DNA from: Nocardioides marmoriginsengisoli
GTDB lineage: Bacteria > Actinomycetota > Actinomycetes > Propionibacteriales > Nocardioidaceae
Reading direction: 5' to 3'
Assembly (NCBI RefSeq): GCF_003725695.1
Contig: NZ_RJSE01000009.1
Span: forward strand, 310,001-374,000
DNA: 64,000 bases
The notes under the pieces are model-generated. The model was not told the origin of the DNA. It ran no database searches and was given only the letters and a program-made list of their open reading frames with translations. The number at the start of each line of letters is the position of its first letter. Positions within the stretch are counted from its first letter, which is position 1. Made by a program: the position numbers and the translations under genes. This document shows, piece by piece, positions 58,162 to 61,879 of this stretch.

Positions 58162-58272
58162 TCAGCCCTTGCCCAAGGTGCTTCCGGCCTTGGACTTCGC
58201 TCCCTTTGACGACGACGATGACGACAGCGTCTTCCCGGCCTTCGACAGCGCAGACTTGCTCGGCTTGCCCAT
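58162..58272 (-). CDS. 36-residue lysine/serine-rich micro-protein in the Ubl operon
   Basis: ATG at 58272 begins 5 nt after the stop of the DUF6527 gene and has a strong ribosome site (GGAAGGGGGTGA) 4 nt upstream, so translation is well supported. The product starts MGKPSKSALSKAGKTL, has six consecutive Ser (17-22), and ends KSKAGSTLGKG. It contains eight Lys and eleven Ser, and the motif SKAGxTL occurs twice (residues 10-16 and 27-33). It has no membrane helix or signal. Its position as the last gene of a ubiquitin-like operon makes a conjugation target or tag conceivable, but that is inference. Confidence 0.7.
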   Translation of the reverse strand: MGKPSKSALSKAGKTLSSSSSSKGAKSKAGSTLGKG

Positions 58273-58277
58273 GTTGC

Positions 58278-58691
58278 TCACCCCCTTCCGGCGCTCGTAC
58301 CTCGTGCTTGGTCCCACAGGCGGCGCCACCACCGGGCCTTCGCCGCGATCGGCGCGACGACGACAGGAACGTGGGCAGCTCGGTCACGTGCGAGCGCCGC
58401 CTCGGTTGCACGCGCAGAGATGCGGGGCAACCAGTCAATGTGGTCGTGACGGATGTAGTAGTGCGACCGACATGGCTGTTGGCCGTTGCCAATCGACGGG
58501 CGGAGGCTGACGGAGCCATCGAACGAGAGCACCCAGTCGTTCGGACCAAGCGGCGTGACGACCTTGACGCCACATCCGCAGGCGCAGAGGTGAACCGCCG
58601 TACGGTATTGCAGCGAGACGTAAAGGGTCTCCGGCTCCGGCGTAGCCGGGATGGACGTGGTGAACATCGTGGTCAGGTTCATCGCCTTCAC
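58278..58691 (-). CDS. DUF6527 family Cys-rich protein
   Basis: A 137-residue protein. Residues 36-40 are CACGC, followed by VVTPLGPNDWVLSFDGSVSL, PSIGNG and PCRSHYYIRHDHIDWLP; Cys36/38/40, Cys74 and His77 look like a zinc site. This matches the DUF6527 pattern. Members often lie beside ThiF- and ubiquitin-like genes; their biochemical role is unknown. The GTG overlaps the E1-like stop (GTGA), so it belongs to the same operon. The last 50 residues are Ala/Arg-rich and probably disordered. Confidence 0.85.
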   Translation of the reverse strand: MKAMNLTTMFTTSIPATPEPETLYVSLQYRTAVHLCACGCGVKVVTPLGPNDWVLSFDGSVSLRPSIGNGQQPCRSHYYIRHDHIDWLPRISARATEAALARDRAAHVPVVVAPIAAKARWWRRLWDQARGTSAGRG

Positions 58692-60022
58692 GCCACCTCT
58701 CCTCCTGATTCCTCGTCCTCGGTCTCGACTTGCGCCATCTCGACCTTCCGGACGTGCTCGACCAGGCCGTCAAGGTCGTCGTCCTCCTCCGGGTCGCCGC
58801 CGGCAGCACCGTTACTGCGGCCGGGATGGGCGTTGTCGCTGGTGCCGTAACGGTGGTGGAGGTCGCCGGAGTTGACTACGAACACGGTGTGACGCTCGTC
58901 CTCGACGTCGGCGTAGAAGCGCAACCACTTCTTGTATCGGATGATGGCGAGCTTGGCCGTGATCGCGTTGATCTCGTCGACTTGCAGGTTGGTGTCGTAC
59001 TCGGCGTCCTCGCCCGGGAGGTACGAGATCAGGCCGTCCCGGGCGATGTGGTCGCTGCGGCCGGGGGTCGACGTGGTGATCCGGATCTGGCCGGCGATGC
59101 CGTTCGCGTCCTTGCTCAGGCCGACGCCGGTGTCGATGAACGGGATGCCGTTTTCGACGAGCGTCTTGACGATCACTTCCTTGTCGGGCCCGGTGTCAAG
59201 GGCGAGGAACACGAAGTCGGCGTCGAGGAGCTCGGCGACGTTTTCGGCGGTGACGTTGACCGGGTGCGGGACGATGTGGCGCCGCATCACCGAGTACATC
59301 TGGGTGTAGTACTCGACCTTCGTCAGGCCGGCATCCAGGTCCGCGAGGCTGGCTGCGCCGGGGGCACGGAAGGCGTTGTGACTGCGGAAGAAGTCGGCGT
59401 CGTAGAGATGGAGCGTGAGAGCCGGTGTCTTGGCCAGCCCGTCCAGGAGGTGCGCCCCGGTGCCGCCAAGTCCGACAATGACGACCTTCTTCACAGCGAG
59501 GAGGTCGTTGAGCTCGGTGATGCCGGCGCGGCTGGAGAACGTGTCGACGTAGGTGAAGGCGCCGTCGTCCTCGTCGGTCTGGATCGGCTTGAATGTGTAC
59601 GGATGCACGTCAGGGTTGACCGCCTGGGCGGAGCTGATGACCATGGCCGTGTAATAGGTGACCTTCTCGTAGAAGTCCTTGTAGCCACCTTCGGGCCTCT
59701 GGGAGAAACCGCAGGTCGCGGTGAGGTCGGGCGTGGCCGACCACTTCTCGACACCGTCGTTGACCAGGTCCCTGATCGACTTGCCGTTGTGGTCACGGGG
59801 GATACCCCCGGCGAAGCACATGACGTGCGTCGCCGGGGGCGCCGTAGTGGTGCCGGCCAGGTCCAGTGGGCAGAGGAAGTGACCCCACTGAATCTGACCG
59901 GCGTCGTCTACGTACGGGATGTCGTCGACGACAAGGAACCCGTTGACGATGCGTACGGCGAAGCCATCCTGGACCAGGCGGGCCAGATCGGGACTGTTAC
60001 GAACGAGTCGTGAGCCGGACAT
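58688..60022 (-). CDS. ThiF/E1-like adenylyltransferase with a long N-terminal domain
   Basis: A 444-residue E1-like enzyme expected to adenylate the C-terminus of the Ubl encoded just upstream. The Rossmann-type ATP loop is KKVVIVGLGGTGAHLLDGL (about 178-196), then LYDADFFRSHNAFR (207-219) and LDADFVFLALDTGPDK (266-281). The C-terminal half has no Cys at all, so a classical E1 cysteine is missing. The only Cys (51, 69 and 104) lie in the N-terminal 170 residues, which resemble the DUF6791-type extension and may serve as a built-in E2-like part. The acidic tail is disordered. The start overlaps the Ubl gene by 26 bp. Confidence 0.85.
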   Translation of the reverse strand: MSGSRLVRNSPDLARLVQDGFAVRIVNGFLVVDDIPYVDDAGQIQWGHFLCPLDLAGTTTAPPATHVMCFAGGIPRDHNGKSIRDLVNDGVEKWSATPDLTATCGFSQRPEGGYKDFYEKVTYYTAMVISSAQAVNPDVHPYTFKPIQTDEDDGAFTYVDTFSSRAGITELNDLLAVKKVVIVGLGGTGAHLLDGLAKTPALTLHLYDADFFRSHNAFRAPGAASLADLDAGLTKVEYYTQMYSVMRRHIVPHPVNVTAENVAELLDADFVFLALDTGPDKEVIVKTLVENGIPFIDTGVGLSKDANGIAGQIRITTSTPGRSDHIARDGLISYLPGEDAEYDTNLQVDEINAITAKLAIIRYKKWLRFYADVEDERHTVFVVNSGDLHHRYGTSDNAHPGRSNGAAGGDPEEDDDLDGLVEHVRKVEMAQVETEDEESGGEVA

Positions 60023-60278
60023 CGAACGTGGTGCCCTTCTTCTTGACGGTGACCTTCTCGCCGGCGATCAGGGTGCCGTTGAGCTGGCCGCCGCGGGACG
60101 GGTCGGCATTGCGGTAGGTGACGGTGAACCTGGCCTCGGGGTCGTGGCCGGGGTGAGCGAGCTGACCGAGCTCTTCGTAGGTCAGCACGTCGTGGTCGAG
60201 CGACATCTCGGTGCCGTTGATGGCCACCTCGAACTGCTTGTCCTTCTGTTTGCTCTGCTCCTGGGTCGCTGCCGTCAT
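59997..60278 (-). CDS. Ubiquitin-like protein (multi-ubiquitin family, single domain)
   Basis: A 93-residue protein: a Lys/Gln-rich N-terminal tail (about 1-14), then one beta-grasp domain (FEVAINGTEMSLDHDVLTY, ARFTVTYRNADPSRGGQ, GEKVTVKKKGTTFDV). It matches the Multi_ubiq family pattern. It carries a single copy, and the C-terminus ends LTTRS without the Gly-Gly used by most ubiquitin-like proteins, so the chemistry of activation is not obvious. AAAGGAGA precedes the ATG. It heads an operon with the E1-like, DUF6527 and micro-protein genes. Confidence 0.83.
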   Translation of the reverse strand: MTAATQEQSKQKDKQFEVAINGTEMSLDHDVLTYEELGQLAHPGHDPEARFTVTYRNADPSRGGQLNGTLIAGEKVTVKKKGTTFDVRLTTRS

Positions 60279-60341: not shown

Positions 60342-60362
60342 TCATCACCCTAGGGGTGATGA
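60342..60362. promoter_or_regulatory. Perfect 9-3-9 palindrome between the Ubl and toxin-peptidase operons
   Basis: TCATCACCC and GGGTGATGA flank TAG. The site lies 63 bp before the Ubl ATG and about 100 bp before the divergent HigB-like gene. On the minus strand TGCTACTCT, an extended -10, follows it closely, so a bound repressor would cover the Ubl promoter. The HTH of the neighbouring ImmA/IrrE protein is the obvious candidate binder. Confidence 0.65.
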
Positions 60363-60461
60363 TGACAAGGCGAGTGATCGTCGGCGTGTCGAAGGTGGCT
60401 TCACAGGTGGTGCCGGTAGCGTCCGGGCGACGAAGAAAGTGCAGTCATCAGCCGATAGGTG

Positions 60462-60788
60462 ATGGAGAACAGTCGCGTGGAACGGGAGTACCTGGATGAG
60501 GAGTTGCGTCGCCTCGCCACCGATCCCGAGTTCCGGCCAGCGGGTTGGAGCGGTCAGGAGCTTCGGGAGTTCCACCGGCTTGTTCAGTGCGCTCGCGCCG
60601 CACACGTCGAAGACGACATGCGGAACATGCGCCAGCTTCGGATCGAGCCTGACGACTCCGGTGACCCCGCAAGGGCCCGGGCGACGTTGAGCTCGGGCCG
60701 CACGATCGACCTCACATTCAAGAACACCGACAGCCACGGCGTTGTGGTAGTCGGGCTCTTGATTCCAGAGACGGAAACCCCGAGATGA
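60462..60788 (+). CDS. HigB/RelE-like toxin candidate
   Basis: A 108-residue small protein with the rough pattern of the RelE/HigB killer fold: an N-terminal helix pair (DEELRRLATDPEFRPAG, then ELREFHRLVQCARAA), the MRNMRQLRI strand segment, and a final TIDLTFKNTDSHGVVVVGL. The charged residues at the usual catalytic strand are not clearly kept, so the call rests mostly on layout. The stop overlaps the ATG of the HTH-peptidase gene (ATGA), the typical higBA arrangement. An alternative GTG lies one codon upstream. Confidence 0.6.
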   Translation: MENSRVEREYLDEELRRLATDPEFRPAGWSGQELREFHRLVQCARAAHVEDDMRNMRQLRIEPDDSGDPARARATLSSGRTIDLTFKNTDSHGVVVVGLLIPETETPR

Positions 60789-61879
60789 GCAACACAACCC
60801 ACGACCCGCTCCCCATCGACCAAACACCCGTTGGGGAACTACTCGACCTCGAACTCACTGCGCGTGGCTGGTCCCAGGTGGACTTCGCCGCGGTCCTCGG
60901 CCGCCCGGCACAGTTCGTGTCGGAGATCGTGACCGGCAAGAAGGAGATCACCCGGGAGTCCGCCGCTCAGATTGGCGCGGCCCTCTCCCAGTCGCCGGAG
61001 TACTGGCTCAAACTTCAGGACCAGTACCTGCTGGCGAAGCAGGAGAGGAACGTCAAGACGCAGGCCAAGCTCGATGATGTCCGCCGGCGCGCGCGACTCA
61101 ACCGGCTCGGCCCCATCCAACTTCTGCAGAAGCGTGGGTTCCTGAAGGGCACGTCCCTGGACGACCTCGAACCCCAAGTGCAGGACCTTTACGAGCTGAA
61201 GTCGCTGGACGACGAACCCGGCTGCGAGATCGCCGCGAAGCGCGCCAACCAAGGCGAGGACATCACGCTCCTGCAGCGAGCATGGGTGTTCTGCGTGCGT
61301 CGCGAAGCGCGCCGACAGCAGCCGGTCGACAAGTACTCCCCCGCAAGGCTCGCCGAGCTCGCCGCGTCCCTCCCTCGCACCGTCCGGACACCCGAAGACT
61401 TCGCGAAGCTCCCCCAGCAATTGGCTGACGTGGGCGTCCGCCTGGTCTACGTCGAAGCGCTCCCGGGCGCCAAGATCGACGGATGCGCGATGTGGGTAGG
61501 CAAGCACCCTGTCATCGGCCTCTCCGGGCGCGGCAAGCGCCTCGACAAGGTTCTGTTCGCCCTGCTCCACGAGATCGCGCACATCATGCACGGGCACGTG
61601 GAGAAGGACCAGGTCATCGTCGAGGACCTCGACGACAAGCACGAGTCGGCTCAGGAGGAAGAGGCGAACGAGTCCGGGCGCAACTGGATCTTCCCCGACG
61701 GGTTCCCGGCCATCCCGGCACGCATAAGTGGGCCATGGGTCGAGGAGAAGGCCGCCGAGCTCGGCATCGCGCACATCGTCCTCATCGGCCAACTGCAGAA
61801 GAAGGGCCGTCTCGACTGGCGCACCACCCTGGTCAAGGGAGCACCTTCGGTCGCGGACGTCCTACCAACCTGGAGTTGA
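60785..61879 (+). CDS. XRE/HigA-type HTH protein fused to an ImmA/IrrE metallopeptidase
   Basis: A 364-residue fusion. The HTH domain (about 15-80) reads TARGWSQVDFAAVLGRPAQF then GKKEITRESAAQIGAAL, as in HigA-like antitoxins. The peptidase domain carries the zinc motif HEIAHIMH with His262 and His266 as ligands and a downstream Glu-rich EEEANESGRNWIF. Such proteins cleave a repressor or themselves under stress. Being fused to its own DNA-binding domain, it may relieve its own repression. It is the antitoxin partner of the HigB-like gene and a candidate regulator of the divergent Ubl operon. Confidence 0.88.
   Translation: MSNTTHDPLPIDQTPVGELLDLELTARGWSQVDFAAVLGRPAQFVSEIVTGKKEITRESAAQIGAALSQSPEYWLKLQDQYLLAKQERNVKTQAKLDDVRRRARLNRLGPIQLLQKRGFLKGTSLDDLEPQVQDLYELKSLDDEPGCEIAAKRANQGEDITLLQRAWVFCVRREARRQQPVDKYSPARLAELAASLPRTVRTPEDFAKLPQQLADVGVRLVYVEALPGAKIDGCAMWVGKHPVIGLSGRGKRLDKVLFALLHEIAHIMHGHVEKDQVIVEDLDDKHESAQEEEANESGRNWIFPDGFPAIPARISGPWVEEKAAELGIAHIVLIGQLQKKGRLDWRTTLVKGAPSVADVLPTWS

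Follow-up and report, generated by a model that had tools for sequence, protein, structure and literature searches.

The stretch of Nocardioides marmoriginsengisoli DNA analysed here (64,000 nucleotides, positions 310,001 to 374,000 of contig NZ_RJSE01000009.1 in assembly GCF_003725695.1; hereafter the window, whose numbering is used unless another locus is named) carries an operon of three minus-strand frames at 58278-60278, coding for a ubiquitin-like protein (Ubl), an E1-like protein composed of a DUF6791 and a ThiF-fold domain, and a DUF6527 protein. On balance, we lean towards reading this locus as a compact conjugation system of the Bub type, in which an E2 and an E1 are fused in one chain, the Ubl travels through ester intermediates and the DUF6527 protein is a possible deconjugase. 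The computed results are that the operon is conserved, that its E1 and Ubl are related to their Bub counterparts, that DUF6791 matches an E2-like fold, that the E1-like protein has no conserved cysteine at the three sites where the window's protein has one, and that the Ubl has a conserved Ser at its end. The features of the operon are the following:

59997..60278, minus strand: Ubl of 93 residues with a single Multi_ubiq domain (PF14452; Pfam, 37.8 bits, cut-off 24.5) and the C-terminal residue Ser93.
58688..60022, minus strand: candidate E2-E1 fusion of 444 residues, DUF6791 plus ThiF-fold E1 domain (Pfam, NCBIfam, AlphaFold2 model).
59540..59992, minus strand: DUF6791 domain of the fusion (residues 11-161), predicted E2-like fold, with His66 (codon 59825-59827) and Ser107 (codon 59702-59704).
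58832..59530, minus strand: ThiF-fold E1 domain of the fusion (residues 165-397), with Tyr342 (codon 58997-58999) aligned with Tyr370 of BubCD.
58278..58691, minus strand: DUF6527 protein of 137 residues (Pfam, 77.6 bits, cut-off 23.6), with a Cys36/Cys38/Cys40/Cys74 cluster and a Ser66/His77 pair.
59997..60022, minus strand: overlap of 26 nucleotides (nt) in which the Ubl gene ends and the E1 gene begins.
58162..58272, minus strand: Ser/Lys-rich open reading frame (ORF) of 36 codons, probably no conserved part of the system.

One genome per species was scanned with 21 aligned E1 sequences, which gave at least 593 pattern matches, at least 556 of them relatives; the best 80 of these were kept as loci, more distant members being under-represented. 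Adding 21 loci taken from plasmids and whole genomes, one of them the window's own, gives a set of 101, in which the Ubl gene lies directly 5' of the E1 gene in every case and the DUF6527 gene directly 3' of it in 97. Two of the four loci without DUF6527 end just past E1 (L082, L086), while the other two (L080, in which the E1 frame is broken, and L089) do not. The three-gene operon is thus conserved and real, and the comparison of gene order across genomes that the original prediction had proposed supports it. That prediction had counted four genes: its Ubl, E1-like and DUF6527 assignments hold, each above its Pfam cut-off, but the 36-residue micro-protein does not. The frame of the latter is open and a G-rich Shine-Dalgarno-like stretch lies upstream of its ATG; neither Pfam nor NCBIfam matches it, none of 11 close relatives has a similar short ORF (20-120 codons, starting within 200 nt) directly 3' of DUF6527, and a search of 58 genomes returned a match in its own genome only. 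It was rejected as a component of the system because it is not conserved.

According to the coordinates, the E1 and DUF6527 frames share 4 nt. By the starts annotated in RefSeq, 11 of the 15 plasmid loci that have an annotated Ubl (L010 has none annotated) show a Ubl-E1 overlap of 26 nt, and the other 4 one of 41 nt. Over the 101 loci this overlap is 26 nt in 96, 23 nt in 4 and 41 nt in 1, a count that is biased, as the E1 start nearest to a 26-nt overlap was chosen.

Judging by record titles, carriers among the matches listed include actinobacteria, proteobacteria, Bacteroidetes, Chloroflexi, Acidobacteria, cyanobacteria (including Nostoc) and Thaumarchaeota bins. Closer to home, a search of 98 relatives found DUF6791 in 3 of them and in none of the 23 other members of the genus, and 396 genomes from the phylum also yielded 3 (own genome counted both times). 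E1 relatives occur in 114 of 72,556 plasmid records and in none of 50,697 phage records; 58 stretches of viral contigs fit a search pattern, and 5 encode a relative. This distribution fits horizontal spread, since the operon is sparse in the phylum, has plasmid-borne relatives and has a lower G+C content (64.7% for 58162-60278) than the window (70.3%). A locus labelled 'uncultured archaeon' has a JAB-E1-like gene (L054:9562-10998) on the opposite strand near its DUF6791 operon, which places both branches side by side.

The C-terminal half of the E1-like protein matches ThiF (Pfam, 39.2 bits, residues 171-313), and the protein belongs to an uncharacterised NCBIfam family (PRK06153.1-4, 395.8 bits, cut-off 352); its AlphaFold2 model has a pLDDT of 88.3 and a pTM of 0.82. 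Conservation was read from an alignment of 75 sequences (A2), comprising the window's protein and 74 of the 80 loci L024-L103 (L032, L043, L045, L060, L077 and L080 left out); the other alignments hold 72 (A3), 43 (A5) and 27 (A8) sequences. Within the E1 half, Asp208, Asp210, His215, Arg219, Lys235, Tyr342, Gln347, Asn352 and Lys364 are invariant, as expected, on sequence grounds, for a working adenylation site. The closest E1 relatives are BubCD proteins, solved with E2 and Ubl. Tyr342 aligns with Tyr370 of BubCD, a Tyr that is invariant in five out of five JAB-E1 proteins, and the title of PDB entry 9eav names a Tyr370 to Phe change, together with one in the JAB domain, in BubCD with BubB and BubA.

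The N-terminal region matches the DUF6791 profile at 158.1 bits over residues 11-161, a comparison that the original prediction had suggested. The fold of this domain is E2-like according to a fold search, in which it matched the UBC fold, with BubB as best match; the TSG101 ubiquitin E2 variant domain (TSG101-UEV) and VPS37A, which are E2-like domains not known to have Cys activity, were also matched. A relation between DUF6791 and Prok-E2_E was sought at the sequence level, with a negative result. As had been read from the translation, the window's protein has cysteines only at positions 51, 69 and 104, all in this domain. The proposal that the N-terminal domain supplies an E2-like cysteine therefore stands in part: the fold agrees with it, while Cys occupies the three positions in only 14, 6 and 17 of the 75 sequences, and an N-terminal Cys was rejected as the E2 catalytic residue on this count. 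That one of the three nevertheless serves as such, as their being the protein's only cysteines and lying in the E2-like domain might suggest, is hardly to be expected.

No cysteine of the E1-like protein is invariant across the 75 sequences; the ThiF half has none at all in 11, and in one the entire protein has none. Two further columns often hold Cys, though not in the window's protein: column 274 in 40 of 75 sequences (Ala274 here) and column 76, within DUF6791, in 58 of 75 (Arg76 here). His66, on the other hand, is present in 75/75 with no Cys in its column, Ser107 in 74/75 (L089 reads Cys), Tyr124 in 74/75 and Lys120 in 72/75. Bub is reported to work through oxyester intermediates (Ye et al. 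2026). The non-conserved cysteines, the invariant Tyr342 in the position of Tyr370, the near-invariant Ser107 and these reported oxyesters together suggest that the E1 carries a Tyr ester and, with less certainty, that the E2-like domain carries a Ser ester.

The Ubl is, as predicted, a single-domain member of the multi-ubiquitin family without a C-terminal Gly-Gly, its tail reading LTTRS. When aligned with hhalign to the Ubls of JAB-type operons, it matched them over 38 columns (Prob 92.5, E 4.8e-7); a search with the single Ubl for a solved relative gave chance-level matches only. Its C-terminal Ser is found in 101/101 loci and is always encoded by TCN (TCG in 59, TCA in 26, TCT in 11 and TCC in 5). 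This codon sits within the E1 frame; its first base is the wobble base of an E1 codon, at which C would be synonymous for E1 in all 101 loci, and its remaining bases are mostly read there as Arg, His, Leu or Pro. From each gene's own usage, T is expected there in 36.0 loci and was found in 101 (the corresponding log10 P of -54.2 takes no account of the relatedness of the loci and should not be read as a probability). Because T is fixed where C would be synonymous for E1, the Ser seems to be held by selection on the Ubl frame, although a constraint on the RNA may be an alternative cause. Of the 11 JAB-type Ubls read for comparison, some have Gly as their last residue (TTTEG), while in the others a Gly close to the C-terminus precedes a short extension or the fused E2; the solved BubA chain ends in Gly. 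As the stop codon of the Ubl gene directly follows the conserved Ser, leaving no extension, the Ubl would need no trimming and a maturation protease would be dispensable.

In the DUF6527 protein, Pro15, Cys36, Trp53, Pro65, Ser66 and His77 are invariant in 43 sequences (A5; 38 from this branch and 5 from the JAB branch), and Cys36, Trp53, Pro65, Ser66 and His77 are kept in 12/12 sequences of a mixed set that includes phage relatives. This pattern fits a Ser-His enzyme. The abstract on Bub reportedly mentions a protease; DUF6527 is perhaps that protease. No solved structure related to DUF6527 was found by sequence or profile, and a single-sequence search gave chance-level matches only. In two JAB-type operons, from Deinococcus and Bradyrhizobium, an annotated phosphotransferase gene lies between E1 and DUF6527 (L108:7344-8792 and L114:5217-6821). 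The organism's own genome has a second DUF6527 copy (C5:184339-184572; L120:3774-4124) adjoining an ORF that resembles a phage head protein (phrog_240, E 0.0006). It is matched by 277 of 50,697 phage records, the phage family being phrog_3362, of unknown function, and this copy and three phage relatives exceed the Pfam cut-off. As for the phage relatives L127, L128 and L129, the copy in RcapMu lies beside terminase and portal genes and the two others beside endolysin or chitinase genes. The phage relatives could be counter-enzymes, or the domain could have another, more general role.

If the locus works as a Bub-like system, the ThiF-fold E1 would bind the Ubl and adenylate its C-terminal carboxylate without trimming, as the intact adenylation residues and the tail suggest. 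The Ubl would then move as an ester to hydroxyls rather than cysteines, most likely Tyr342 of the E1 and then Ser107 of DUF6791, and DUF6791 would set it on target proteins in the role of the separate BubB; the DUF6527 protein, with its Ser-His pair and Cys cluster, may strip the Ubl or help to select targets. A sharper form of this, which we put forward tentatively and as a possibility rather than an expectation, is that of a cysteine-free E2-E1 in one chain with Tyr342 and Ser107 as consecutive ester carriers, and of a modifier born mature with an obligatory Ser, whose conjugates phage DUF6527 relatives may strip. With E2 and E1 in one chain and the modifier mature from the start, neither a separate E2 nor a maturation protease would be needed.

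We think it unlikely that the E2 step is missing altogether, the E1 adenylating the Ubl, Tyr342 or the substrate taking it directly, and DUF6791 serving as an RWD-like domain for docking or target recognition. The absence of a conserved Cys from DUF6791 and the presence of TSG101-UEV and VPS37A among its fold matches would agree with this, as does the statement in the cited part of Iyer et al. that the E2-like protein of canonical operons is catalytically inactive and RWD-like (PMC1779556). However, the strict conservation of His66 and near-strict conservation of Ser107 is more than a docking domain needs, and the best fold match, BubB, is part of a solved E1-E2-Ubl complex (9eav). The same two residues could instead make DUF6791 a Ser-His peptidase that replaces the JAB protease in trimming or removing the Ubl: the domain is N-terminal to the E1, where BubCD and the Synechocystis protein have JAB, and the consulted table of Iyer et al. 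puts a 'domain X' in JAB's stead (PMC1779556). This is improbable given the E2-like fold of DUF6791, a Ubl that appears to need no trimming, with its C-terminal Ser in all loci, and the presence in 97/101 loci of DUF6527, a better Ser-His candidate. More improbable still is that the tail of the Ubl is itself modified, the E1 adenylating the C-terminal Ser and the Ubl carrying a small group, with no conjugation to proteins. MccB, which acts on the C-terminal Asn of the MccA peptide, provides a model for such chemistry, but the closest E1 relatives are BubCD, solved with E2 and Ubl, an E2-like domain is fused to the E1, and the Ubl, as a Multi_ubiq family member, is a folded domain.

Among known systems, the locus resembles Bub in its Multi_ubiq Ubl, its ThiF-fold E1 with Tyr at the position of BubCD Tyr370, its DUF6527 gene (also present in JAB-type operons) and, often, a divergent HTH/M78 regulator (HTH, helix-turn-helix). 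The reference used was Citrobacter BubA, BubB and BubCD (PDB 9ea4, 9ea5, 9ea8, 9eae, 9eav), as given by PDB titles and citations, the studies cited being Ye et al. 2026 and Gong et al. 2025. Unlike the present operon, Bub has a Prok-E2_E E2 (BubB), separate or fused to the Ubl, instead of DUF6791 fused N-terminally to the E1; its E1 carries a JAB domain, whereas Pfam finds DUF6791 and ThiF only here; and its Ubl ends in Gly, or Gly and an extension, instead of Ser. Prok-E2_E was found in 0/80 loci (three queries, E <= 1e-5) and not in the own genome, with a Synechocystis plasmid as positive control, and the genome's one Prok-JAB lies elsewhere, beside ORFs that read as MoaD-like and CysM-like. 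CBASS Cap2 is an E2-E1 fusion, as the present protein is by fold, and it uses cysteines and attaches a CD-NTase; here, the three sites show no conserved cysteine, the Ubl gene adjoins the E1 gene, and no CD-NTase was recognised in the operon by the Pfam scan.

The consulted part of Iyer, Burroughs and Aravind 2006 lists, in class 6e, footnote b, polyUbl operons that have an E1 with 'domain X' replacing JAB and a metal-binding protein Y, Frankia being among the carriers (PMC1779556). Our operon has in common with these a Ubl, an E1 in which a different domain takes the position of JAB, and a small Cys/His protein, and we infer from this matching gene content that domain X, known by its description, is DUF6791. 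The differences are that domain X is unidentified in that table, while DUF6791 is matched here to the E2 fold, that the loci examined have no separate E2, and that one Ubl domain is enough. In Bil (BilABCD), too, one operon encodes a bacterial Ubl together with E1 and E2-like proteins, but the cited part of its description attributes to it a catalytic-Cys E2, an E1 bearing a Cys domain, and a protease of the JAB type (PMC11354881), none of which is seen here; in agreement with the original prediction, the operon has neither a JAB nor a separate E2 gene. A literature search, which did not cover Chambers et al. 2024 or the primary papers on Bub, found no paper that names DUF6791 or DUF6527. Nor did it find in print that DUF6791 is E2-like, that the Tyr residues are equivalent, that the C-terminal Ser of the Ubl is selected, or that DUF6527 and its phage relatives show a Ser-His pattern; the primary Bub papers may cover part of this.

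A divergent module lies upstream of the operon:

60342..60362, no strand: operator-like palindrome TCATCACCC-N3-GGGTGATGA, in the gap that separates the operon from the divergent regulator.
60459..60788, plus strand: RelE/HigB-like ORF of 109 residues, divergent from the operon.
60785..61879, plus strand: candidate HTH-M78 (ImmA/IrrE-like) regulator of 364 residues (Pfam Peptidase_M78, 24.6 bits, cut-off 22).

The RelE/HigB-like ORF shares 34% identity across 80 residues with a Micrococcus protein (E 2e-12) that itself matches Pfam HigB-like_toxin (40.3 bits), and the HTH-M78 gene matches PADLOC PD-Lambda-2_B (105.8 bits); the two genes (60459-61879) resemble a toxin-antitoxin or defence pair in its own right. 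The palindrome has 9-base arms and a 3-base spacer, and the window holds 2 matches with up to 3 mismatches, against 0.03 by chance, the weaker copy (60445-60465, 3 mismatches) lying just 5' of the RelE-like ORF. Five of the 10 loci L024-L033, which share the RelE-HTH-M78 neighbour, contain the core of the palindrome, TCACCC-N3-GGGTGA. Apart from these five and the loci of the own genome (L001, L002), none of 129 loci has it. This module and its palindromic operator probably repress the operon until stress or infection occurs.

Over the 80 loci, M78-like genes diverge from the Ubl in 43, and RelE-like ORFs (12), CapK-like (3) and CapS-like (2) genes lie near the operon. WYL regulators are annotated beside 3 of 16 plasmid loci (L009, L013, L022), and three WYL queries gave no match in the 80 genome loci. 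Two plasmids, of Rhizobium and Shinella (L014, L021), have UvrD-like helicase or nuclease genes near the operon, and the former has a second Ubl gene about 6 kb upstream on the other strand. According to the cited parts of earlier studies, 70% of PF14452 proteins adjoin HTH/DUF955 pairs (PMC4963859), 219 of 544 Bub operons adjoin CapW or CapH+CapP, which are DNA-damage-responsive regulators of immune operons, and phage protection by Bub has not been shown so far (PMC13373217). The operon may plausibly have a role that is triggered by stress or by phage. The 16 kb beyond the window are mostly metabolic, judged from ORF translations; this reading, made with no family search there, does not support a defence-island setting.

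Conjugation of the ubiquitin type is usually a relay of cysteine thioesters, whereas this family appears to use hydroxyls within one polypeptide and a modifier that ends in Ser. If true, this would connect the Bub pathway with Cap2 and other E2-E1 fusions. It would also hint at what two uncharacterised Pfam families do, DUF6791 as an E2-like domain and DUF6527 as a candidate Ser-His enzyme, and would offer a two-protein system simple enough to reconstitute.
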